From Nitrososphaera sp. (GTDB lineage Archaea > Thermoproteota > Nitrososphaeria > Nitrososphaerales > Nitrososphaeraceae): a stretch of 64,000 bases of DNA. Below are positions 29,150 to 43,044 of the stretch, piece by piece. The stretch lies in the NCBI GenBank assembly GCA_039938515.1, contig JBDUUL010000017.1, positions 1 to 64,000 of the forward strand. The letters are read 5' to 3'. The first letter of the stretch is position 1; each line of letters opens with the position of its first letter. The position numbers and the translations under genes are program-made. The notes beneath the pieces were generated by a model. The model was not told the origin of the DNA. It was given only the letters and a program-made list of their open reading frames with translations, and did not search any database.

Positions 29150-30775
29150 GTGGAACCTATAATCCAGTTGATCGCCGCAATCGGCGGGACGCTCGGACTG
29201 TCTGTGCTCTTCGGCCTGTACATGGCAAGAATGATCTCGTACGAATCTAGGCCTATTGAAAGAACCCTTGCCAAGGTCGAGAGCGGCTTTTACAGGCTGA
29301 TTGGAATTGATGCGACCAAAGGAATGACCTGGAAGCGCTACTTCATTGCAATATTGGTTACGGATGTTTCCGCCGGCGTCATACTGTTTCTGATCCTAAC
29401 TTTTCAAAATTATTTGCCAACTGCGACGCCGGGAATCGCAGGACTGGCCCCCGATCTGGCGTTTCACACCGCTGTCTCGTTTATGACAAACACCGACCTG
29501 CAGCATTACAATGGAGATCAACAGCTCACCGTATTTTCGCAGATGGTGGGGCTCACCTTTCTGATGTTTATCGCGCCCGCAACTGCAATTTCCTCCGGAT
29601 TTGCTTTTATCCGCGCGTTTATTCGAAGGAATTTCGGCCTCGGAAACTTTTACGTGGATATGATAAGGGTGACAGTCACCCTTCTGCTTCCGGTTTCGTT
29701 CATCTCGTCTCTCATACTGATTTATGCTGGAGTTCCGCAGACGCTGCAGCCCTCACTTTCGTTTAATGACCTTGAGGGAAAGCCGCAAACAATTACGATG
29801 GGTCCAGTCGGGTCGCTGGAATCGATAAAGGAACTTGGCCATAACGGCGGCGGTTATTTTGGCGCAAATTCTGCACATCCATTCGAGAATCCTAACGGCC
29901 TTACAAACGTGTACGAGATTATGCTGATTCTTGTCATTCCACTGGCATTCCCCATAGCATATGGAAAACTCGTCGGCTGGGGTAGAGGGATCTCAATTCT
30001 CATCACCATGCTTATTGGCTTCGGCTTGATGCTGGGCATCGCATTCTACCAACCCAGTGGCCCCACAGGACTTGACACGCGGTTTGGCAATTTCGGAAGT
30101 GTCCTTTTCAACGTGGCATCGGTTGCGACGAATACCGGGGCAGTCGCATCAGCCCTAACAGGAATGTCTCCCGCTGCCGTAACTTCGCTGTTCCTTGGTA
30201 TGTTCGTTCAGGCAATACCGGGTGCTGCTGGCGTCGGGATGATGACCATGATGATGTACGTAATCCTGAGTCTCTTCATTGTTGGCCTGATGGTTGGCAA
30301 GACTCCTGAATTCATGAGCATGAAGATTAGCTCAAAGGACGTTAAACTCGCGGTCTTTATCTTTCTATTACATCCCGCGCTCATCCTGATTCCGACGGCG
30401 CTTGCGTTTACTACAGGAAACGCGCAGGCAGTCACAAGCTCGCCCAACAACAAAGTCTCGGCAATTGCGTACACCGAAGTGCTTTACGAATTTACATCGT
30501 CTGCTGCAAATAATGGCTCCGACTACCTTGGAACAAGCGCGAACACTCTGTTCTTCAACTGGTCCACGGGGCTGGTGATGTTCATAGGCAGATTTGCGCC
30601 GCTGGGACTAATGATGGCACTTGCCGGATCATTTACAACAAAGGAAAGGAAAGAAGCCCCCGAGCCAATCAAGACACAGGGGCCGCTGTTCATAACCGTC
30701 CTGCTAATCATGACGTTTCTTCTGACAGCACTTACCTTCTTCCCATTCATCGTGATAGGGCCGTTTTCGCTGTGA
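29150..30775 (+). CDS. kdpA: K+-transporting ATPase subunit KdpA
   Basis: KdpA is the channel-like, K+-selective subunit of the KdpFABC pump, a member of the superfamily of K+ transporters. It has about ten spans in 541 residues. Selectivity-loop segments are recognisable: TNTDLQHYNGDQ, the GHNGGGYFGANSAHPFENP block (quoted in part), and the VATNTGAVASAL and SAANNGSDYLG loops. A GTG start at 29150 follows a GAGTGA sequence. It is the first gene of kdpABC, here without the usual upstream kdpF. Confidence 0.95.
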   Translation: MEPIIQLIAAIGGTLGLSVLFGLYMARMISYESRPIERTLAKVESGFYRLIGIDATKGMTWKRYFIAILVTDVSAGVILFLILTFQNYLPTATPGIAGLAPDLAFHTAVSFMTNTDLQHYNGDQQLTVFSQMVGLTFLMFIAPATAISSGFAFIRAFIRRNFGLGNFYVDMIRVTVTLLLPVSFISSLILIYAGVPQTLQPSLSFNDLEGKPQTITMGPVGSLESIKELGHNGGGYFGANSAHPFENPNGLTNVYEIMLILVIPLAFPIAYGKLVGWGRGISILITMLIGFGLMLGIAFYQPSGPTGLDTRFGNFGSVLFNVASVATNTGAVASALTGMSPAAVTSLFLGMFVQAIPGAAGVGMMTMMMYVILSLFIVGLMVGKTPEFMSMKISSKDVKLAVFIFLLHPALILIPTALAFTTGNAQAVTSSPNNKVSAIAYTEVLYEFTSSAANNGSDYLGTSANTLFFNWSTGLVMFIGRFAPLGLMMALAGSFTTKERKEAPEPIKTQGPLFITVLLIMTFLLTALTFFPFIVIGPFSL

Positions 30776-30785
30776 GGGGTTGGGA

Positions 30786-32990
30786 GTGAGCAGGAATATG
30801 GATCAGCAAAAACAGGAAAAAAATGGCATGACAGCCCAGAGAAGATCTGTCATAGACCCGTCGGTTCTAATTGATTCAATTCTAAAGCTGGACCCGAGGT
30901 ATCTGGCAAAGAACAACCCGGTAATGTTTGCAGTAGAGATGGTATTCTTTCTTATTCTTGGAATCACCGCTTTCCCAGACGTCTCTCCCAAGTTTGTCAC
31001 TGAGAGCCAGACTCTGTATGCTGAAGTGGCTGTAATACTAATTCTGACTGTCTGGTTTGCGACATTTTCAGAATCACTTTCTGAAGCTCAGGCAAGGGCA
31101 AGGGTCGACTCGCTCAGAAGCCTGGAAAAAGAGGTGACGACGCGAAAGCTGGTAAACGGCAAGGAGGTTATGGTGACATCAACTACGCTCAAACCAGGCG
31201 ACGAGGTAAAGGTGTTTGCTGGAGAAATAATTCCCCGAGATGGTCTTGTTGCTGAAGGCAAGGCGTTCATTGACGAATCCATGATGACTGGAGAATCAAA
31301 TCCTGTCTTCAAGGAAAAGGGCGACCATGTGCTTGGCGGCACAAGGGTAGCAAGCGACAGCATTATCGTCGAGATTACTGCCGAGGCAGGGCGAAGTTTT
31401 CTCGACGATATGGTAAGACTTATCGAGAGCGCAACAAGGCCCAAGACACAAAATGAAATCGCGCTTACTATCCTTCTCTCCGGCCTCTCGCTGATATTCA
31501 TTATGGTCATTGGCAGTCTGCCATTCATGGCCAACTACCTTGGCTACACCATGGACGTCGCGATGCTAGTCACGCTATTAGTTGCGCTCATGCCTACAAC
31601 CATCGGTGGGTTGCTTCCCGCAATAGGGGTCGCTGGAATAACGCGGCTTGGAAAAGACAACATCGTTGCAAAATCCGGCAAAGGCATTGAAGCCGCGGGA
31701 GACTGCGACGTGCTGATACTGGACAAAACGGGCACTATCACCGAAGGGAGCAGGGGTGCAATTGCCTTTGTGCCGCTGGAAAAGTACTCAGAAGAAGATG
31801 TGGGACAGGCCGCCTTTGCTGCCTCAATCCATGACACGACCCATGAGGGTAAAACGACCGTTGATCTTGCGGAGCAGAAAAAGTTTGTTCCTATAAACGC
31901 GATGGAAAATCTGTTAACCGCAAAGTCAATCGAGTTTACGGCAGAAACTGGCTACAGCGGGATTGAGATTATCCCTGTCAGAAAGGGGGCAATGCTAAGC
32001 AAGGAGCACAGCGAAGCGGTAGCATCCGTCAATAGAGCTATTGGAAATGGAGTCAATACAAACCAGGATTCAGCATGCAAGGTCAACGGGATGATCCAGC
32101 AGCTCGCAGACCTAAATGCTGGTGGAAGAATTCTCAAGGGATCTGTTGATTCCGTTTTGCCGCTCGTCAAGAACGTCAACGAAGCGGAAGTGAGGTGGAA
32201 GGCGCAAGAAATCTCCAAGTTTGGCGGGACTCCATTGCTGGTAGCCGTGGGACAGGAGGCAATTGGCCTGGTCTCGCTGAAAGACCAGCTCAAGGAGAAC
32301 ATCAAGAAGAAACTTGACGAGGTGCGGGCCACTGGCATTGCAACTGTAATGATTACCGGCGACAACAGGCTTGCGGCGCAGGTCATCGCCAAGGAGGCGG
32401 GTGTGGACGAGGTGATGGCCGAGGCAAAGCCAACCGACAAACTCAGGCGAGTCCAAGAAGAGCAGGTAAAGGGCCATGTCATTGGGATGGTTGGCGATGG
32501 CACCAACGACGCGCCCGCGCTCGCAAAGGCCGACGTGGGACTTGCAATGAACAGCGGAACCTCGGCCGCAAAAGAAGCAGCAAACATGGTGGACTTGGAC
32601 TCCGACCCGTCAAAGATCCTCAAAGTAGTAAAGCTGGGAAAACAGCTGCTCATGACGCGCGGCGCTATCACCACTTTTAGCATCGCCAATGACGTTGCCA
32701 AATATTTTGCAGTCCTTCCTGCAATGTTCAGCGCATCAAACCCAAAGATGCAGGCTTTAAACATAATGCAGCTTCATAGTCCCGAGACCGCAATACTGTC
32801 AACGCTAATCTTTAACGCAATAATCATCCCCGCGCTTATCCCGCTTTCACTCCGGGGCGTCAAGTTCAAGCCGGAACCACCTCAAAAGACCTTTGTCAAG
32901 AACATGGTAATTTACGGGCTCGGCGGAATAGTGCTGCCTTTTGTTGCGATAAAGGGCATAGACCTTGTGCTCTCGGCATTTATGAGGTGA
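30786..32990 (+). CDS. kdpB: K+-transporting P-type ATPase subunit KdpB
   Basis: The catalytic P-type ATPase subunit that energises KdpA. The phosphorylated Asp is at about residue 313 in LDKTGTITEG; the actuator motif MMTGESNPV, the ITGDN nucleotide loop and the MVGDGTNDAPAL hinge are all present. At about 734 residues it is longer than common bacterial KdpB (about 680-690); extra sequence lies in the nucleotide-binding domain (around KSIEFTAETGYSG to SVDSVLPLV). The GTG at 30786 is chosen because GAGGGG lies six bases upstream; TTG 30780 and ATG 30798 are alternatives. It follows kdpA by 10 bp. Confidence 0.95.
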   Translation: MSRNMDQQKQEKNGMTAQRRSVIDPSVLIDSILKLDPRYLAKNNPVMFAVEMVFFLILGITAFPDVSPKFVTESQTLYAEVAVILILTVWFATFSESLSEAQARARVDSLRSLEKEVTTRKLVNGKEVMVTSTTLKPGDEVKVFAGEIIPRDGLVAEGKAFIDESMMTGESNPVFKEKGDHVLGGTRVASDSIIVEITAEAGRSFLDDMVRLIESATRPKTQNEIALTILLSGLSLIFIMVIGSLPFMANYLGYTMDVAMLVTLLVALMPTTIGGLLPAIGVAGITRLGKDNIVAKSGKGIEAAGDCDVLILDKTGTITEGSRGAIAFVPLEKYSEEDVGQAAFAASIHDTTHEGKTTVDLAEQKKFVPINAMENLLTAKSIEFTAETGYSGIEIIPVRKGAMLSKEHSEAVASVNRAIGNGVNTNQDSACKVNGMIQQLADLNAGGRILKGSVDSVLPLVKNVNEAEVRWKAQEISKFGGTPLLVAVGQEAIGLVSLKDQLKENIKKKLDEVRATGIATVMITGDNRLAAQVIAKEAGVDEVMAEAKPTDKLRRVQEEQVKGHVIGMVGDGTNDAPALAKADVGLAMNSGTSAAKEAANMVDLDSDPSKILKVVKLGKQLLMTRGAITTFSIANDVAKYFAVLPAMFSASNPKMQALNIMQLHSPETAILSTLIFNAIIIPALIPLSLRGVKFKPEPPQKTFVKNMVIYGLGGIVLPFVAIKGIDLVLSAFMR

Positions 32991-32996
32991 TAATAG

Positions 32997-33482
32997 CTGG
33001 CAAAACAAAACAAGTACTGGGAAATTTTTGCCCCCGCGATCAAGGTCGTGATTCTCATGCTGGTTCTGACCGGCATTGCATATCCGCTCAGTCTACTTGT
33101 CATCGGGCAGGAGGCGATGCCTACAATGGCAAACGGGAACATTATCAACCTAAACGGCAAGCCTATCGGTTCGTCGCTAATTGGGGAGAACTTTACCTCG
33201 CCAAAATTCTTCCATTCAAGAGCGCCTTCGGATTCGGCGTCAGGAGTGGACCCAGACATTACTCCTAATGACGCATACTCACAAGTTCAGAATGTAAGCC
33301 AGGCCACGGGAATCCCTGTCAATCCGATAAAGACGCTGATAAGATTGAACATCGAGGAGAACAAGTCGCAAAACCTGGCGGCCTTTGCGCCTGACTACGT
33401 TAACGTGCTCCAGCTCAACCTTGACCTGATGGACCAGTACCCACAGCAGTATGGGGAATTCCTGAACAGCACGCAGAAGTGA
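32997..33482 (+). CDS. kdpC: K+-transporting ATPase subunit KdpC, apparent CTG start
   Basis: KdpC is the single-span chaperone-like subunit of the Kdp pump. The TGIAYPLSLLVIG helix and the conserved GKPIGSSLIGENFTSPKFFHSR block (quoted in part) with PDITPNDAYSQ identify it. The C-terminal DYVNVLQLNLDL is typical. The first canonical start (GTG 33048) would begin in the middle of the membrane helix. In frame, CTG at 32997 follows a strong GAGGTGA ribosome site at optimal spacing of six bases, directly after a TAG in the same frame. I therefore propose CTG initiation, giving 161 residues. Confidence 0.9.
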   Translation: MAKQNKYWEIFAPAIKVVILMLVLTGIAYPLSLLVIGQEAMPTMANGNIINLNGKPIGSSLIGENFTSPKFFHSRAPSDSASGVDPDITPNDAYSQVQNVSQATGIPVNPIKTLIRLNIEENKSQNLAAFAPDYVNVLQLNLDLMDQYPQQYGEFLNSTQK

Positions 33483-33654: not shown

Positions 33655-35529
33655 TTATGCCGCTTCAGAGTTTGTTTTTTGCCGGGTAGAAACTTCCGAA
33701 GATTCAGCCTGACCAATCCAGTTCTGCGCTGCGCTCCCAGCCGTTCCTGATGGGTAAGAGTTTTGTTGTCTGGCATCCAGCGGTGATGAAGGTTCTCCGA
33801 TTGTCGTCTCGCCTAACGCGCTCTTTCTTGACCTTGCAAGCGTTCCAAAGAAATTGTAAACAAATACTAGCTGCGCAAAGCCTACTGTTAACGCAAAGAA
33901 CAGCAACCATGGCAGCGCCCATGAGAACTCGTCAGGGACTACTGCCTCCCTTCGGATAAAGCCTGCAAACCCAAGATAGGTAAACATCAGGGCAAGGCCA
34001 AACCCTCCAAAGACGGTCAGTCCGAGATGTATATAACCGAGTCCTGGGCTTAGACGCCTCTTTGTAAGGGCAGGAACGACGGAGTAGATTATTCCAAGGC
34101 CAAGTAGCACGCTTCCCATCAGGAGCACAAGGTGGATGTGCCCGACGACATTTAGCGTGTTATGTAGGTACGCATTCGTGCCCCACCACCCAGTCTCCAC
34201 TCCCGTAAAGCCCCCAAAAGCCCAGCCCGCTATTCCGGCCACAATAAACACCGAGGTGATGTTCCACCTTATTCTTGACCTAAAGATGTACATCATTATT
34301 GTCATGATGGTCAATCCTGACGGAAACACTATGCCAAAACTCGATATCTGCGAAAGCGTCTGGAGCCACACAGGATTTGGCAGGTCCTGGTACAGGTGGT
34401 GTGAAAAGACTCCCATTGTAAACATAAAATAAAACGGCCATGGTCTGTACGCCCATCTGTCATACGGCACTATTTTCCTTGCATACCTGGGGATGAAATA
34501 GTAGGCTGCTCCAAGGAACGAAAAGAGCGTAAAGTATACTATCGGGTGACCAAAAAACCACCATGCGTCCTTTGTGAGAAGCCAGTTTATCTGAAAATTT
34601 GGATTCATGAGATAGGAATACCCGTTGGCAAGCTGGATAAAGAGGCCAATGTTTCCTAGCAGCTGGACAAGCGAGTTTACGAAAATTCCGACGACAACAA
34701 TTGATACTGCGGGCACGTGTCTCCTTTTTTGAATCGGGAGCCACGCCGAAATTCCAAGAACCGACGCCCAGCGAACAGCTGACGGGATATTTACCGAGTC
34801 CAGATAGTCCGGCGAGCCATGATCAGCGCCTGTGTCGGAAAGAGGGACGCTTTCTCTAGGTCCTGCCTGGCGCAGTTCTGCAGGCGAACTGGAAGCAGTA
34901 GTCGTTGCCTTGTGGCGAGAGCTGTAGTCCTCCTCGCTGCGCTGCACGCCGGCCGCAATCTTGCCAGTTAGCACAGTTGCAATTACGTCTAGCGAGAACA
35001 GCGTCAAGGAAATTCCAATGAGGGTGTCTGCTGCCAGAAAAATTGCAGCGGCTAGGGTGGACCAGCCTCCGTTGCCCGGATGAAAGGGCAGGGGCATAAG
35101 GTCATACCATCCTCCTCCAAAGAGCATGACTCCTGACAGGATAAGCAATATCGCCCCGGAATTCATCGTGATAAACGACCAGACTGCCACCTTCATGCTC
35201 CTTAGCGGCTTTTTCGCAAACTTGCTGAGGAGATAGTAGCTCAGCCCGAGGACAAGCATCGACGCAAACCCAAAGAACATGAGCTGACCGTGAACGGTAA
35301 GAGCGGCATAGAAAACGCCGGCGGTCTGTTGCGCATTGCCCGAAGCAAGCAAGACCTTTGACTGGATCACGCGCATTACTATCGCAAGCGAACCGGCGAT
35401 GACAAAGTAAATAATCGCCGAGACGATAAACATCGTGACAAGATTGGAAAGCTCTTTTGTGATCTCGTAGCGCGGAATCGGACTCTCTTCATCTTTGTAT
35501 TTTTCACTTTTCCGGTCAAGGCTCGCCAT
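33655..35529 (-). CDS. coxA: Heme-copper oxygen reductase subunit I (B-type, ba3-like)
   Basis: The catalytic subunit of a terminal oxidase that reduces O2 to water and pumps protons. Low-spin heme and binuclear-centre ligands are visible: His80 (TVHGQLMFFGF), CuB His328 and the cross-linked Tyr332 in GHPIVYF, the His377-His378 pair in FSHHLY, and His464/His466 in VVGHIHLV. HPIVY instead of HPEVY points to the B family. An unusual hydrophilic stretch, residues about 195-250, rich in Ser/Thr/Ala, interrupts the membrane core, and the C-terminus has about 60 polar residues. The ATG at 35529 is fixed by GGAGG seven bases upstream. It follows subunit II by 16 bp. Confidence 0.92.
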   Translation of the reverse strand: MASLDRKSEKYKDEESPIPRYEITKELSNLVTMFIVSAIIYFVIAGSLAIVMRVIQSKVLLASGNAQQTAGVFYAALTVHGQLMFFGFASMLVLGLSYYLLSKFAKKPLRSMKVAVWSFITMNSGAILLILSGVMLFGGGWYDLMPLPFHPGNGGWSTLAAAIFLAADTLIGISLTLFSLDVIATVLTGKIAAGVQRSEEDYSSRHKATTTASSSPAELRQAGPRESVPLSDTGADHGSPDYLDSVNIPSAVRWASVLGISAWLPIQKRRHVPAVSIVVVGIFVNSLVQLLGNIGLFIQLANGYSYLMNPNFQINWLLTKDAWWFFGHPIVYFTLFSFLGAAYYFIPRYARKIVPYDRWAYRPWPFYFMFTMGVFSHHLYQDLPNPVWLQTLSQISSFGIVFPSGLTIMTIMMYIFRSRIRWNITSVFIVAGIAGWAFGGFTGVETGWWGTNAYLHNTLNVVGHIHLVLLMGSVLLGLGIIYSVVPALTKRRLSPGLGYIHLGLTVFGGFGLALMFTYLGFAGFIRREAVVPDEFSWALPWLLFFALTVGFAQLVFVYNFFGTLARSRKSALGETTIGEPSSPLDARQQNSYPSGTAGSAAQNWIGQAESSEVSTRQKTNSEAA

Positions 35530-35545
35530 TGCTATTCCTCCACTT

Positions 35546-36304
35546 TCAAGAAGCGTAGATGGTAACCTGCGAGACCATGAAGGGGTGGTTCCAGCCGCAG
35601 TACTCAAGACATCTTATCGTATATGTGCCCGGCTTTGTGAAAGTGTAGTAGGCAACATTGTCAAATCCCGGAACTACTTGCATCTGCATCAGCGGGCTAT
35701 CCATGCTCTTGTTGCTTGCAAGCACCGAAAAACCATGGTTGACGTCGATGGATCTTGCAACGAACTTGACTGTCTCATTTACCTTGACATGAACCTGCTT
35801 TGCAGCTCCGTTAGGGCCTGTGGCCTGTTCAAAGGCGCTTGCGCCGGCATGCGCCGGTTTTGCCTCGGCAGCTGGCGTCTGCTGCGACCAAGTCGGACCG
35901 GTGCCGTAGCCTCCATCCTCTAGCATCCAGAACCACTGACCTGCCGTAACGTATACTGTGTGGACATGCGAAGGGTCAGACATTGCCTCCGAGTATGCAG
36001 CCGGGGGCATCCATGGGAGCCCGAGAGTCCAGAGCCACACGAGCATCCCTGCAACGAATATGGCCCAGTACCTCTCCGCGTGGTACTTGTTGAGCTTGTA
36101 CTTTAACGAGTTCTCTCCCTGCAGCGCGGCGTGCTTTGTAGACAGCGCAACATAGACAAAGAAACCGGTTGCCAGAATAATCGCTGTTGTCAGAACTTGA
36201 ACCAGCCAGGGAACGCCGTACCCCCAGTCTGCCGCAAGACGAACGTTTGCAAAAGCATTTTGCGCCAAGCTTGTAGCGGCGAAAACAAGGTGATCAAATA
36301 CCAT
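35546..36304 (-). CDS. coxB: Heme-copper oxidase subunit II with CuA site
   Basis: A 252-residue electron-entry subunit. Two membrane helices (about 31-54 and 79-98) are followed by an outside cupredoxin-fold domain with a complete CuA site: His in DVNHGFSV and the CLEYCGWNHPFM cluster (two Cys, His, Met and the bridging Glu position). An alanine/proline-rich insert (AAEAKPAHAGASA) sits inside the domain. CuA presence means its donor is a soluble-type carrier such as a cupredoxin, not a quinol. It is cotranscribed with subunit I and diverges from the cupredoxin-quinoprotein gene. Confidence 0.93.
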   Translation of the reverse strand: MVFDHLVFAATSLAQNAFANVRLAADWGYGVPWLVQVLTTAIILATGFFVYVALSTKHAALQGENSLKYKLNKYHAERYWAIFVAGMLVWLWTLGLPWMPPAAYSEAMSDPSHVHTVYVTAGQWFWMLEDGGYGTGPTWSQQTPAAEAKPAHAGASAFEQATGPNGAAKQVHVKVNETVKFVARSIDVNHGFSVLASNKSMDSPLMQMQVVPGFDNVAYYTFTKPGTYTIRCLEYCGWNHPFMVSQVTIYAS

Positions 36305-36583
36305 TCAGCAAACCACCGCTGACCAATTCAAAAAACGCGGTGCGCCTTTGTATTAACGAATTTGCAACCAATATTCTATGGGTTGCTTACCAAACAGCCG
36401 TACTTGTCGCGCTGAAAGTGTCGGGTTTTCAGCGTCTCCTAAAGGATGGCCATGTCAGGGAAAGTATTATACCGAAAACTTACACAGAACAAGAACGTAC
36501 GAAAACTAACAATAACAACGGTTTGCTATGCGTTAATACTTTAAGAGACGAGCTTTGTTGTGGTTTCTCTTTCTTCACAGGTC

Positions 36584-39343
36584 ATGCTTGGAATCGGCAT
36601 TGCATTGGCCGCAGCAGCTATTGCTTCAATATTTGTCACCACTGCTGCAGGACAGAATCAGAATTCTGGCGGCCAGCAGCAGCCCCGATCATCCGGATCA
36701 GGGGGACAGACTCAGACTTCCTCGAGTTCCAACTCTTCTCAGTCGAGCTCAGGCAGCGGAGCGACATCCACGATAACGATCGTGCAGGGCGCGGCCTCGC
36801 AGCAGGGCCAAAAGTCCTACGACCCAGATCCGGCAAATGTTCAACCCGGTTCAAAGGTGACATGGCAGAACAAGGATTCTGCCCCACACACCGCGACAGC
36901 CGATGATAACTCGTTTGATACGGGCACTATACAGCCCGGAGCCACAGGTCAGGCCATGATAAAAAGTCAGGGCAAGATTCCCTATCATTGCACTATTCAT
37001 CCGTTTATGCATGGAACACTGCAAGCCGGCCAGGGTGGCGGGAGCGGCGGCAACAACAGTTCGACCACATCCGCAGCCCAGCAAGGAGACTCGTCATCTT
37101 CTAGTACGTCAGGCAATACTTCTGGCAGCGTCCAAGCCGGGGGATCCGGCTCTTCAGTCGTCCAGGCTCTGAAGCAGACAGACGACTCCCTTGTCAAGGC
37201 ACTTCAGCTGTCACTCCAGCAGATGGGCAGCGGAGGAGCTTCCGCAAGCCAGCAGCCATCGCAAACTGGCGCCTCTTCCAATCAGTCTACAACTTCAGCA
37301 GCATCGCAGGGTAACCAGAGTTCTGCAGGCTCGCAGCAGTCAGGCGGCAGTACAAGCACCATCGAGATACCACAGGGGGCTGTCTCTGCAAAGAGTGGCG
37401 GCTATTACGCACCTGCCTCCGCCAAGGTCTCAGCCGGGAAGGTGACATGGGACAACAAGGACAGCGTTCCCCACACCGCGACAGCCGACGACAACTCGTT
37501 TGACACCGGGACAATAGAGCCCGGGGCCTCCGGCTCGGCAACGATAAAGGCTGCTGCGGGCAGCGGATCCATATCCTACCACTGCACCATCCATCCGTGG
37601 ATGAAGGCAACGCTCACGCTCGGTGCAGGCGGTACGAACGGTTCGGGCAGCAATAATCAGACCTCCACTTCGTCAGCCTCGGGCGGACAGCAGAACCAGA
37701 CAATGAGAAAAACCGCAACCGTTTACACCCTGGTCCCGCCGGCAGCATCTACCTCGTTTGGTACTGAACCCGAGCACAAGAACGACTGGGTGACAACCTA
37801 CCACGATATCTATGGCACAAGGTCGAGTCAGCAGACAATCATTGGAAAGGATAACGTCAACCAGCTTCAGGCAAAGTGGATTTTCCACAGCGATTTCCCG
37901 ATCGAAAGCCCCGCGCTGATTGTCGGTGACAGGGCGTATGCGATAGACAATGCAATGCGCGTCTTTGCAATCGACATGAGCAACGGCTCTAACCTGTGGA
38001 TGTTCGACCCCGGCGTGGCAGGCCAGCAGAGCCAGCAGCTTCCACGGGGTACGTTTGCCCACGGCATAACTTACGACAACGGAGTCATTTTCGCCCCGAC
38101 AGGAGCTAATGCCACAGTGGTGGCGCTAAACGCAACAGACGGCAAACTCATGTGGCAATCGGCGGCCATAGGTGATCCTACCTTGGGCTACAGGGAGCCT
38201 GCGCCTCCTATAGTCTGGAAGAACTATGTGATAGCTGGTTCCGCACTTGGAGACGAGCCTCCCTTTGGCGCTCTACAAGGCAGGATCGTAGCGCTAAACA
38301 GGACCAATGGAGACGTGATCTGGAACATGTCGACCACCGCAGGTGCATGGGTCCACGGCGACAATTCCACAAAGAACGGAGGATCTATGGTATGGTCGGG
38401 CGGTTCACTTGACCCGCACAGCGGCATACTCTACATCCCAACCGGCAATTCCTCTCCAGACTTTAACGACACTGGCAGGCCGCGTCCGAACAACTATACC
38501 AGCTCCATTATTGCAGTCGACGTCAAGAGCGGACACATGCTCTGGGCAACGCCGTTTGTAACAGACGACACTCACGACTGGGATACGGCTTGGGGCACGA
38601 GCATAGCCAATGTAACGGCACTAAACAGCACGAGCGGGCTAAATTCGAGCGAGCAGCTGGTCATGGGACAGACCAAGCGCGGCGACCTCTTTGCACTTGA
38701 CTCAAGCAATGGAAAGGTTGTGTGGAATGACACGGTGGGCGTGAAGTACAATATCGATGCCAAGCCGTCAGCGCAGGGCAGCGGAACTGTTTGGCCGGGG
38801 ACTCAGTACGGAGTGGAAGCATACCATGCAAATGACAACAGCACGGTTTACGCGGCCGTAAGCAACATGGGCTTTAACTTTTTTGTCCACGGCTCAAGCG
38901 GGAACGTCGTACCGGCCTTTGACTCGATAAAGAACGGGGTGGGGAACGGGACAATAACTGCCGTGGACATGGCCACAGGCAAAATAAAGTGGGTGCACCC
39001 GACGGACTTTCCGACGTGGGCTTCCCCCGCGGTTAGCAACGGAGTTGTCTTTTCCGGCCACATTACAGCCACGGGAACACCCTATTCGTACAACGACTTT
39101 GGCGCGCCTTCCAAAACGCCACTGAACCCGTCAGGTGTCGTGATAGCACTTGACAAGGATACGGGCAAGGAGCTGTGGGAGTTCAACGTTGGTGCGCCTC
39201 TCGGAGTCGGCGGGCCATCTCTCGGACACGGGATGCTGCTGGTGACAACCGGAAGTCCGGCCGAAGTCGAGGCTAACAAGGGAGGAGACATTGTAGCCTT
39301 CGGGCTGCCGTCCACGAGTCAGACTACAACCGCCAGCAAGTAA
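36584..39343 (+). CDS. Secreted double-cupredoxin/PQQ-type beta-propeller fusion
   Basis: A 919-residue extracytoplasmic protein. Signal/anchor helix (MLGIGIALAAAAIAS), Ser/Gly/Gln-rich linkers (about 25-60, 145-255 and 348-378), and two cupredoxin domains with full type-1 copper ligands: His102/Cys136/His139/Met142 and His297/Cys334/His337/Met340. Residues about 385-915 form a quinoprotein dehydrogenase-like propeller (DWVTTYHDIYGTR, VVALNATDGKLMW, repeated D-x-x-[NT]-G-x-x-x-W blades, GNSSPDFNDTG and THDWDTAW near 662, matching the catalytic-Asp region of PQQ alcohol dehydrogenases). The vicinal Cys pair of methanol dehydrogenases is absent. The substrate and whether PQQ is bound are unknown. 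The ATG fits the signal helix; GTG 36560 is an alternative. Confidence 0.85.
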   Translation: MLGIGIALAAAAIASIFVTTAAGQNQNSGGQQQPRSSGSGGQTQTSSSSNSSQSSSGSGATSTITIVQGAASQQGQKSYDPDPANVQPGSKVTWQNKDSAPHTATADDNSFDTGTIQPGATGQAMIKSQGKIPYHCTIHPFMHGTLQAGQGGGSGGNNSSTTSAAQQGDSSSSSTSGNTSGSVQAGGSGSSVVQALKQTDDSLVKALQLSLQQMGSGGASASQQPSQTGASSNQSTTSAASQGNQSSAGSQQSGGSTSTIEIPQGAVSAKSGGYYAPASAKVSAGKVTWDNKDSVPHTATADDNSFDTGTIEPGASGSATIKAAAGSGSISYHCTIHPWMKATLTLGAGGTNGSGSNNQTSTSSASGGQQNQTMRKTATVYTLVPPAASTSFGTEPEHKNDWVTTYHDIYGTRSSQQTIIGKDNVNQLQAKWIFHSDFPIESPALIVGDRAYAIDNAMRVFAIDMSNGSNLWMFDPGVAGQQSQQLPRGTFAHGITYDNGVIFAPTGANATVVALNATDGKLMWQSAAIGDPTLGYREPAPPIVWKNYVIAGSALGDEPPFGALQGRIVALNRTNGDVIWNMSTTAGAWVHGDNSTKNGGSMVWSGGSLDPHSGILYIPTGNSSPDFNDTGRPRPNNYTSSIIAVDVKSGHMLWATPFVTDDTHDWDTAWGTSIANVTALNSTSGLNSSEQLVMGQTKRGDLFALDSSNGKVVWNDTVGVKYNIDAKPSAQGSGTVWPGTQYGVEAYHANDNSTVYAAVSNMGFNFFVHGSSGNVVPAFDSIKNGVGNGTITAVDMATGKIKWVHPTDFPTWASPAVSNGVVFSGHITATGTPYSYNDFGAPSKTPLNPSGVVIALDKDTGKELWEFNVGAPLGVGGPSLGHGMLLVTTGSPAEVEANKGGDIVAFGLPSTSQTTTASK

Positions 39344-39351
39344 CAGGAAAC

Positions 39352-39388
39352 GGGGAGCTTCCGCGCAGGAAGCCCCCTGTCTTTTTTT
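39352..39388 (+). terminator. Strong hairpin/T-tract terminator after the quinoprotein gene
   Basis: GGGGAGCTTCC pairs with GGAAGCCCCC across a five-base loop, followed after TGTC by seven consecutive T. It begins 9 bp after the stop codon. Confidence 0.75.
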
Positions 39389-39565
39389 CTCGACATGCAT
39401 CAGAAAACAGGGCAATGAGTTTTTGCGGATTTTGGTCAGGCTCTGCCGAGTCTTGTTAACGAAAAATTTGCTAGAACTGTACTATTATAGAAAATACCTG
39501 CAACAAAACGTGGAAAAAGATGAAAACCTACTATAGTTTTATACCCGATAACACTTGTTCAAACA

Positions 39566-40717
39566 ATGGATACGAAAAATATTCTCACCCCGTCAATAAT
39601 GGTCGTGCTGGCCGTGTCGCTTTTGCTAGCTCCGGCCGCCGGTAGCGGCGGCAGCCAGAACGCGGCAGCCTCAGTAGGCGGCACCCAGAAGAGCAACGCA
39701 GTGGGAGTCTTTGCATGGATATTTGACTGGAATCCCGCATCAGGGATGTGGCTCAAAATCTATAACGAAAAACTCGCCCATCCAACGGTCCCGACGTTTA
39801 TCGCGATGAATCCTGCCAATGGGGTAGGAGCAAACAAGGTTTCAGGCTTTGTGAGCGATATCTCGCTTGAACACAAGGCCGGCGTCAAGGTCTTGGGCTA
39901 CGTCTATACAGACTATGCAAACAGGTCGCTTGCTTCCGCGGAGAACGAGACCTATTACTACAAGACATGGTATAACGTCGACGGTATAGTATACGACGAG
40001 ATGAACAATCACAATACCACCGCGGTAATGAACTATTACAGGAACCTCACTGCCTACGACCTGTCACTCGGATTGAAGTACTCTTTTGGAAATCCGGGCG
40101 ATCCAGTTCCGCGAAACATGGAAGGGATAATGAATACCACCTTTGCGTACGAAGGCTCTACCATACCGTCTGAGAGCACGCTGAAGAGCGCAACCTACTA
40201 TCCGACCTACAACAAGTCAAACTTTGCCTTTGTGGCTTACAACCAGAGTTCCACCACCGCTCCTTCAGTCAGCGCCATCAATGCAACTGCAAAGTACGTT
40301 TCTGCAATGTGGATTACGGATGGAAAGGTATACACGAAAAGTCCGAGCAATCCGTACGACCAAATCCCTACATGGGCTGATGTTGTCTTTACAACGCTGG
40401 ACCAGAACTGGGACACATCGGGCGCTCCAGCCAAGACCGGCTTTAGCCAATCAGATTCTCAGGTAACCTTCCTTGCCGAGAATCGGAGGACGTACGACCA
40501 GATTGCAGGGGCCCAAATCAGAATTGTCAACAGCAGTGGCTATTCCCTCACTTATTCCGACCCGCAGGCAGTTCAGATAAGGTCTGGCGATACCTATACT
40601 ATCACCGCACTGAACGTTTCTGGCTATACGTTTGATCACTGGTCAACGGGCGCGACATCACAGACAATTTCGGGAGTGTTTGGTGGAGACAGAGTTATTG
40701 CTGCCTTTTACAGGTGA
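39566..40717 (+). CDS. Secreted spherulin-4 family protein with C-terminal repeat domain
   Basis: A 383-residue exported protein. A signal peptide (ILTPSIMVVLAVSLLLAPAAG) leads to a TIM-barrel-like domain (about 45-280) of the spherulin-4 family: FIAMNPANGVG, AGVKVLGYVYTDYANR, then WYNVDGIVYDEM with the acidic residues expected of a glycosidase site. A fungal member, Sph3, is a GH135 enzyme cleaving galactosaminogalactan, so an exopolysaccharide hydrolase is plausible. The C-terminal 90 residues (SGYTFDHWSTGATSQTI) resemble a bacterial-repeat (InlB/BACON-like) beta domain. A TTTTATACC TATA box lies just upstream. Confidence 0.8.
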   Translation: MDTKNILTPSIMVVLAVSLLLAPAAGSGGSQNAAASVGGTQKSNAVGVFAWIFDWNPASGMWLKIYNEKLAHPTVPTFIAMNPANGVGANKVSGFVSDISLEHKAGVKVLGYVYTDYANRSLASAENETYYYKTWYNVDGIVYDEMNNHNTTAVMNYYRNLTAYDLSLGLKYSFGNPGDPVPRNMEGIMNTTFAYEGSTIPSESTLKSATYYPTYNKSNFAFVAYNQSSTTAPSVSAINATAKYVSAMWITDGKVYTKSPSNPYDQIPTWADVVFTTLDQNWDTSGAPAKTGFSQSDSQVTFLAENRRTYDQIAGAQIRIVNSSGYSLTYSDPQAVQIRSGDTYTITALNVSGYTFDHWSTGATSQTISGVFGGDRVIAAFYR

Positions 40718-41388: not shown

Positions 41389-43044
41389 TCAATACGGGAT
41401 TGTAAAACTAAAAGTCGCTCCCTTTCCGTCAGCATTATTAGAGGCTGACAGCGTCCCGCCGTGAGCCTCAACTATGTGCTTTGCAACGTACAGGCCAACC
41501 CCTGTGCCGCTTTGAGTCGAAGTTTCCCCCACTGCCTTTGACGCAAATATCTCAAAAAGCTGCGGAAACATGGAAGGGTCTATCCCCGGCCCCGTATCTC
41601 TGATGGTAACTACAACACGACTTGGATTTTCAGCGCGGCTCGCCGTTACCTCGACGGTGCCCTCATCGGTAAACTTGATCGCGTTTCCAAGCAGGTTGTA
41701 GAGAACCTGGGATATCTTGTCCCTGTCAGCGTTAATCACGATTTTTTCCTTTGGCTCGTAAACCACCGTGAGGCTTTTCGCCGACGCCGCAACCTGATGA
41801 ACGCTATCGTTGACAATATCGCCAATTACAGAGGATAGTTCGAATTCTGTCCTGTTCAGATGCAGCAGGCTGCGCTCAACTCTGGAAACTGTTAGCAGGT
41901 TTTCTGTAAGCCTCTGCAGCCTCTCTGCGTTTCTGGCTATCATTTCCAGCGCATTCTTGGCCGAGTCAATGTCAAGCTTGCCCGAATCAAGCTCCATCTT
42001 TAGCAGCTCGACCCTTCCAATAATGGGCTGGACGGGGGTCCGCAGCTCATGCGCTGCTATATTGATAAACTTCTTCTCGGCCTGCTGCTGGGCCTCAAGC
42101 TGCTTGTACAGCTCGCTCTGGTTCCATAGGGAATCGAAAAAGGACACCAGGCTGCTGATACTGCGCCTGCTGTTGGAATACACGCTGACTCCTATTGCGT
42201 CCGAGTACATTTCAGAAGCCGGGTGGACGAGTTCCGAACTAAGAAAATGCGAACGGTCAATTATCATTATTCCCGATTGAGCTTCTGCTGCGTCGAGCAC
42301 TTTTACGCCTGGTTCTGAAACTAGATTCTCAACTATTGCTGAATTGAGCTGGCTGACCGGGACTATGATCCGAACCTCCGCCCCATTTCTGGCAGCTGCT
42401 TTCAGGGTGTCAAGCACGCCCAGGTTCTCCATCCTGAGCAGCGATTTTGAGTTTGGCAGCCTGAAGAGGACTTCCCTTTTGGCAGACCGGGAAAGCTGAA
42501 GAATCAGCTCGCTGGCTTTCTCTGTGTCGTAGATAACCTCGAACTGCTCCTGCTCGACTCCCTGCTGTATCTCGCTGATGCGCTGTTCTGCAGGAATAGA
42601 TTTGCGCCAGAGGGTCTGGAAAAGGTATTCGTGCTGTTCAACGATTGATTTTACGGTGCTGTGAATTACTTCCGGCACAGGGGCGGCCTCTCTCGGCACA
42701 ACGGCAGTCGCAAGGTATTCGCCTTCGTTTACTGCAAAGTTTCCCTTGATGCCGTCAAGGTGACGCAGCTCGGCATACTTTTGCAGCTCCTGGCAGTATT
42801 CTATGTTGTCCTTCGTAACTTCTGTAATGTATTGGTACTTTACGCCCCTTGCGTGCATGGCAACCATTGCGTCTTTGAGTTCCTTGACGCCGATAGAGAC
42901 GGAAGGAGCAAGCGAGTCAGCGCACACGTGGAGCATGTGCCGGCTATTGGAAGCGAGCCCGATTATGGCTTGAATGGTCGCCTGCTCCCCGTGAAGCACC
43001 ACGGTCTGCTCGTTATCTGGCTGAAGCAAGGCGACACCTAGCAA
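41389..43044 (-). CDS. Cytosolic sensor histidine kinase with TrmB-like sensor domains
   Basis: A 551-residue soluble kinase without membrane spans. The N-terminal about 310 residues contain two alpha/beta sensor modules (SNSRHMLHVCADSLAPS; RSAKREVLFRLPNSKSLL; GAEVRIIVPVS) resembling the phospholipase-D-like/TrmB effector fold. The kinase core follows: H-box INIAAHELRTPVQP, N-box NLLGNAIKF, G1 RDTGPGIDP, G2 GTGVGLYVAKHIVEAHGG. The core is closely similar to that of the 13.1-kb kinase, so the two are paralogues with exchanged sensors. No receiver gene adjoins. Signal unknown. Confidence 0.88.
   Translation of the reverse strand: MLGVALLQPDNEQTVVLHGEQATIQAIIGLASNSRHMLHVCADSLAPSVSIGVKELKDAMVAMHARGVKYQYITEVTKDNIEYCQELQKYAELRHLDGIKGNFAVNEGEYLATAVVPREAAPVPEVIHSTVKSIVEQHEYLFQTLWRKSIPAEQRISEIQQGVEQEQFEVIYDTEKASELILQLSRSAKREVLFRLPNSKSLLRMENLGVLDTLKAAARNGAEVRIIVPVSQLNSAIVENLVSEPGVKVLDAAEAQSGIMIIDRSHFLSSELVHPASEMYSDAIGVSVYSNSRRSISSLVSFFDSLWNQSELYKQLEAQQQAEKKFINIAAHELRTPVQPIIGRVELLKMELDSGKLDIDSAKNALEMIARNAERLQRLTENLLTVSRVERSLLHLNRTEFELSSVIGDIVNDSVHQVAASAKSLTVVYEPKEKIVINADRDKISQVLYNLLGNAIKFTDEGTVEVTASRAENPSRVVVTIRDTGPGIDPSMFPQLFEIFASKAVGETSTQSGTGVGLYVAKHIVEAHGGTLSASNNADGKGATFSFTIPY

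Follow-up and report, generated by a model that had tools for sequence, protein, structure and literature searches.

The fusion gene and the oxidase opposite it

The DNA analysed here (the window) is a stretch of 64,000 nucleotides from contig JBDUUL010000017.1 of a 2.56-Mb, 99.84% complete genome of Nitrososphaera sp. (assembly GCA_039938515.1), which contains archaeal amoA, so that the host is regarded as an ammonia oxidiser. Its subject is a fusion protein, in which two cupredoxins (type-1 copper domains) precede a beta-propeller of the pyrroloquinoline quinone (PQQ) alcohol dehydrogenase type, together with the B-type terminal oxidase encoded divergently from it. The following features were assigned, using the open reading frame (ORF) list, database matches and structural models with their predicted local distance difference test scores (pLDDT):

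33655..35607, minus strand: oxidase subunit I (COX1), B-type, with HPIVY (Pfam, PDB, motif)
35546..36304, minus strand: oxidase subunit II (COX2), with a CuA domain after two hydrophobic segments at the N-terminus (Pfam, PDB matches, motif, hydropathy)
35576..35611, minus strand: CuA ligand motif CLEYCGWNHPFM (motif search)
36305..36559, no strand: divergent intergenic region common to oxidase and fusion (ORF list)
36560..39343, plus strand: fusion protein of 927 residues with hydrophobic N-terminus, two cupredoxins and PQQ-type propeller (ORF list, Pfam, NCBIfam)
36584..36655, plus strand: signal peptide or N-terminal membrane anchor, counted from an in-frame ATG (hydropathy peak at residues 1–32; helix 2–14 in the full-length model)
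36758..37027, plus strand: cupredoxin domain 1, His and Cys-Thr-Ile-His-Pro-Phe-Met (Pfam, ligand alignment; folded in the model, mostly pLDDT 66–90)
37028..37348, plus strand: linker 1, disordered, Ser/Gly/Gln-rich, ~107 residues (composition; mostly pLDDT <35)
37349..37621, plus strand: cupredoxin domain 2, His and Cys-Thr-Ile-His-Pro-Trp-Met (ligand alignment, identity comparison, model)
37622..37762, plus strand: linker 2, disordered, ~47 residues (composition and model)
37763..39313, plus strand: quinoprotein alcohol dehydrogenase-type beta-propeller (PF01011, AlphaFold2 model, Foldseek)
38252..38254, plus strand: Asp565, in the slot of metal-binding Glu177 (GSALGD versus GNGGAE; alignments, slot assigned by sequence only)
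38447..38449, plus strand: Asn630, equivalent of metal ligand Asn261 (alignments)
38576..38584, plus strand: Asp673-Trp-Asp675, catalytic Asp and the extra Asp of a lanthanide-type D-x-D (alignments; meaning of the motif from PMC11996626 and PMC7300363)

The fusion ORF is listed from a GTG at 36560, with an in-frame ATG at 36584, and its Pfam matches were Cupredoxin_1 (2.6e-11), PQQ (PF01011, 2.4e-45) and PQQ_2 (PF13360); no cytochrome c domain was found in it by Pfam, its place being taken by the cupredoxins. The type-1 copper ligands His, Cys, His and Met (His...Cys-x2-His-x2-Met) are complete in both domains, the stretches being APHTAT/HCTIHPFM in domain 1 and VPHTAT/HCTIHPWM in domain 2. 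Ligand alignment and Pfam agree with an initial annotation, made from the sequence alone, which had assigned to a single protein a quinoprotein-type propeller along with two type-1 copper domains, both complete.

That annotation had also described a B-type oxidase with a full CuA site, and this was borne out. COX1 carries HPIVY, lacks the A-type Glu and has its best solved relatives in Thermus thermophilus ba3, whose CuA chains are among the best PDB matches of COX2; the CuA site is complete, with CLEYCGWNHPFM and the His of an upstream HGF. The true start of COX1 is probably an ATG near 35529, since the listed TTG overlaps COX2. Electrons reach the ba3 oxidase from a cytochrome c, whereas the donor here is probably a cupredoxin. 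As the genome has an A-type oxidase of its own (contig C14, HPEVY signature, in an operon ending in a two-cupredoxin gene), the window oxidase represents a second terminal oxidase. Promoter scans of 36305–36559 returned no consensus site and nothing above chance.

A full-length model of the fusion (predicted template modelling score, pTM, 0.55) left the linkers disordered and gave no usable interface between copper domains and propeller. Long disordered linkers of this kind are consistent with tethers swinging between the propeller and CuA in such a model; they permit tethered transfer and do not prove it, and the earlier statement that no soluble carrier would be needed went too far in this respect.

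Propeller fold and predicted cofactor site

The propeller scored 155.8 bits against PF01011 (curated cut-off 26.7) and its AlphaFold2 model reached pLDDT 80 and pTM 0.87. The top Foldseek match was PedH (6zcv, E = 1e-31), with TM-scores of ~ 0.73–0.75 for PedH and the quinohemoprotein alcohol dehydrogenases, and the same proteins gave the best profile alignments. With most metal and catalytic positions retained, fold and alignment identify a propeller of the PQQ alcohol dehydrogenase type, as originally proposed.

Active-site residues were assigned by sequence alignment, with no coordinates measured, and are compared here with methanol dehydrogenase, in which we take Glu177 and Asn261 to be the metal ligands and Arg109 to be a PQQ contact. 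Asp673, Asp675, Asn630, Trp612, Lys706, Asn769 and Trp820 are kept. Among them are the residues that mark the family, namely the catalytic Asp (D673), the Asn ligand (N630), the stacking Trp (W612) and a Lys/Arg near the base (K706), as well as the Asp two residues past the catalytic one (D675, in D-W-D) that marks lanthanide-type enzymes. In the Nitrosocosmicus-type clade Asn630 is replaced by Ser, so that the window propeller retains more site residues than that clade does, and Asp565 is mostly replaced by Gly.

Two groups of characterised enzymes come closest. The lanthanide-dependent PedH and XoxF share the D-x-D motif and the fold, PedH being the best PDB match by both sequence and structure, but the window propeller lacks their vicinal Cys-Cys pair, has Asp for Glu and is only ~21% identical; lanthanide use is a prediction here. 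The type II quinohemoprotein alcohol dehydrogenases (1kv9, 1yiq, 1kb0), which are among the top structural matches, belong to the same propeller family and likewise have their electron carrier covalently fused; theirs, however, is one C-terminal cytochrome c, as opposed to two N-terminal cupredoxins on long linkers and a missing Cys-Cys pair in the window protein. By analogy, the fusion may work like a quinohemoprotein alcohol dehydrogenase without being one, the copper domains filling the place that cytochrome c has in the bacterial proteins.

Relatives and gene neighbourhoods

Among 70 Nitrososphaeraceae genomes surveyed (B-type COX1 counted at E ≤ 1e-30), a propeller homologue was present in 28 and a B-type COX1 in 14, with both in nine; searches of the 17 further genomes in the genus, often incomplete drafts, found neither. 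The oxidase is divergent from at least one cupredoxin gene in G028, G025, G024, G073, G021 and G074 (the G024 contig holds only part of COX2, and no COX2 was found next to the COX1 of G025), and the more distant G043 and G057 have COX2, COX1 and a cupredoxin gene in a single run. The conserved unit is a B-type oxidase with a cupredoxin gene, without the propeller. Since homologues with the same order occur in other genera, a chance arrangement was ruled out.

In one genome, G020 (Centralia_MAG_167, L050/L078), all four parts occur together unfused: COX1-COX2 are divergent from a two-cupredoxin gene, which is followed by a separate propeller gene. The window COX1 falls in a clade (98/98) in which those members that showed a cupredoxin at all had just one. 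As the G020 COX1 lies outside this clade and the window propeller is sister to that of G087 rather than to that of G020, either the propeller was recruited to the oxidase locus twice or an ancestral four-gene layout has been widely lost.

The two cupredoxins of the fusion share 66% identity, and the closest relatives of each are its partner and the lone cupredoxin of B-type oxidase loci (58–63% identity to those of G025, G073 and G024). Although the cupredoxin tree was poorly resolved, these identities would fit an origin in which the cupredoxin of the locus itself was duplicated and then joined to a propeller. Propellers of an inner clade (at least ~50% identity), which was defined after looking, co-occur with the oxidase in 6/7 genomes, and eight genomes have the oxidase without such a propeller (Fisher p = 1.4e-4, uncorrected for kinship).

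Fusions of one cupredoxin with a propeller were seen elsewhere in G073 (L082), G069 (L164) and a Methanothrix metagenome-assembled genome (MAG; L079); in the propeller fusion of a Methanomicrobiales MAG (L080) the cupredoxin is C-terminal. The fusion of the anaerobic methanogen Methanothrix (L079:9581-11557) carries a lipobox-like LSGC and is ~50% identical to the window propeller. Its contig is probably a true methanogen one, because genes that we took by eye to encode a methenyl-H4MPT cyclohydrolase (mch-like) and TFB adjoin it. Separately, G069 encodes four propeller paralogues (L164-L167), one of them cupredoxin-fused, plus a separate B-type oxidase, and the COX1 frame of G025 (L104:7725-10079) encodes 785 residues with a long C-terminal extension, in which the hydrophobic stretch AQLFWAIPLVRQWGKVWYFIGIVGT occurs twice.

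Candidate functions and surroundings of the locus

The explanation that we favour, with roughly even confidence, takes the fusion for a quinoprotein dehydrogenase that acts outside the cytoplasm and supplies the B-type oxidase with electrons through tethered copper relays. The domains with their copper ligands, the fold, the greater part of the metal site and the oxidase–cupredoxin linkage are in place, whereas PQQ binding, cofactor acquisition, the metal, the substrate and the direction and path of electrons are inferred as follows. The propeller would oxidise a small organic molecule, be it an alcohol, an aldehyde or a sugar, using PQQ taken up from the surroundings and a metal, which on account of the D-x-D motif would probably be a lanthanide. 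Electrons would pass to the covalently attached cupredoxins on their flexible linkers, then to CuA of the divergently encoded oxidase and finally to oxygen, in a supplementary respiratory branch of the ammonia oxidiser besides its A-type oxidase. The self-contained chain from substrate to O2 of the initial annotation keeps the support of the fold, the site residues, the oxidase–cupredoxin linkage and G020. The optional nature of the propeller, the missing PqqB/C/E, the loss of Cys-Cys and Arg, and the oxidase-free methanogen fusions, which are taken up below with the alternatives they favour, weigh against it.

As regards the cofactor site, the vicinal Cys-Cys pair and the Arg109 equivalent are absent by alignment, LPRGTFAHG replacing CC...NRG, and the Glu177 slot, Asp here, is variable among relatives and not kept in the nearest one (L117). 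The NCBIfam methanol/ethanol family TIGR03075 was not reached (165 bits, cut-off 480), and the second-best NCBIfam match of the fusion was TIGR04528, the 'acido-empty-quinoprotein' family. Metal and catalytic residues are otherwise mostly kept. Enzymes of heterotrophic marine Thaumarchaeota also lack the vicinal disulfide (PMC7300363).

On the supply of PQQ, which the initial annotation had left open, the outcome was negative: pqqB, pqqC and pqqE were not found above cut-off in the window genome, with no match for PqqB and 31 bits for PqqC (cut-off 240). PqqC was strongly present in the heterotroph-like G049, while PqqE is a poor marker, staying under its cut-off in every genome tested, the PqqC-bearing G049 included. 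PQQ, if used, must therefore come by uptake or by an unrecognised route. Its scavenging by non-producing bacteria is documented for many taxa (PMC12124388). In a complete congener genome, two neighbouring PqqE-like radical SAM genes (G014:C1:1099933-1102380) scored ~ 120–130 bits, below cut-off.

The missing biosynthesis proteins, the loss of the PQQ-clamping Arg and the Cys-Cys pair, the TIGR04528 match, the conservation of oxidase and cupredoxin without a propeller, and the occurrence of relatives in anaerobic methanogens would all be expected if the propeller were a PQQ-free 'empty quinoprotein' scaffold, displaying or docking two cupredoxins at a B-type oxidase that draws on the quinol or cupredoxin pool, in other words an elaborate cupredoxin donor. 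We regard this as rather unlikely, though the most probable of the alternatives: the inner clade selectively keeps the catalytic Asp, DxD, Asn, Trp and Lys, which is unexpected in a dead site, and bacterial non-producers do scavenge PQQ.

The initial annotation tied the fusion to the oxidase, and this tie loosens in the methanogens, whose cupredoxin–propeller fusions have no oxidase beside the gene. Such fusion is recurrent and independent of oxygen respiration, which both weakens the link and motivates an alternative in which propeller and cupredoxins, instead of oxidising an organic substrate, take up electrons that metals, humics or partner cells supply and pass them to the oxidase here or to other carriers in methanogens. 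Besides the close cupredoxin-fused homologues in Methanothrix and Methanomicrobiales MAGs, Methanosarcina barkeri, whose genome contains no genes for PQQ biosynthesis, upregulates genes for PQQ-domain proteins and cupredoxins when it takes part in direct interspecies electron transfer (PMC6315138). Orthology to the M. barkeri genes was not established, though, no extracellular conduit proteins were identified here, and the dehydrogenase-type catalytic residues are retained, so that electron uptake appears quite improbable.

Even the co-occurrence expected by the initial annotation held only for part of the module: the oxidase–cupredoxin linkage is conserved and G020 has the four parts unfused, but the propeller is optional, standing beside the oxidase in 2/70 genomes only (fused in the window, as a separate gene in G020). 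No oxidase was seen on the 3.7-kb contig of the nearest propeller (G087), and co-occurrence of all propeller homologues with the oxidase was not significant (p = 0.065). That the two are chance neighbours, with the fusion supplying a soluble pool or the A-type oxidase while the B-type one works independently, for example at low oxygen, is in our view the least probable alternative and a very doubtful one: most genomes have their propellers at a distance from any oxidase and the window genome has many other cupredoxins, but the fusion cupredoxins are closest to the one specific to the B-type oxidase locus, G020 holds the same four parts together, and propeller and oxidase are both absent from the 17 congeners searched. 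The missing archaeal hydroxylamine-oxidising enzyme was considered and ruled out, as ammonia oxidation is general in a family in which the propeller has so patchy a distribution (28/70 genomes; none of the 17 congeners).

A bolder form of the favoured explanation, which we find rather unlikely in its entirety, is a dedicated ammonia-independent branch, with a lanthanide/PQQ dehydrogenase, built-in copper relays, PQQ from soil neighbours and its own B-type oxidase. If true, it would give mixotrophy a concrete route and the quinohemoprotein dehydrogenases a copper-based counterpart.

PQQ-dehydrogenases have already been reported in some ammonia-oxidising archaea and suggested as an alternative energy source (PMC6657660, PMC10640624), with the acceptor undefined. 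Those of heterotrophic marine and terrestrial Thaumarchaeota are, in the available parts of PMC7300363 and PMC10640624, likewise archaeal, secreted and without Cys-Cys, some having DxD, and blue copper acceptors are proposed for them there; a cupredoxin fusion or pairing with a B-type oxidase was not found in those parts. Two of these enzymes are 26–31% identical to the window propeller, and G049, one such genome tested, has pqqC. Cupredoxins beside coxAB are also known, from clusters of ammonia-oxidising archaea and Angelarchaeales, which resemble the window in this respect but lack the propeller and have another oxidase type (PMC9038741). In the open-access literature, subscription papers not being covered, we came across no description of such a fusion or of one paired with a B-type oxidase. 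Here the gene layout itself points to carrier and acceptor, with copper domains fused to a quinoprotein opposite a second oxidase, and the question of whether ammonia-oxidising archaea gain energy from organic compounds thereby becomes directly testable.

All features of the initial annotation were present, although its interval (36305–40717) left the oxidase at 33655–36304 (minus strand) outside and took in a Spherulin4 gene, which was rejected as part of the module because its counterpart is missing beside related loci. A recent foreign island was ruled out by composition, as GC content and third-position GC (GC3) agree with the surrounding DNA, and the module gave 0 matches in plasmid and viral collections. 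The Spherulin4-family gene (39566–40717, plus strand) encodes a secreted product that may be a surface protein acting on glycans; its C-terminal repeat resembles Flg_new_2 only weakly, scoring under the cut-off. The kdpABC potassium-transport genes (29150–33482, plus strand) adjoin the oxidase and are convergent with COX1, and a histidine kinase at 41389–43044 (minus strand) has in its N-terminal half a weak PLD-like stretch below the Pfam cut-off, an unusual pairing.

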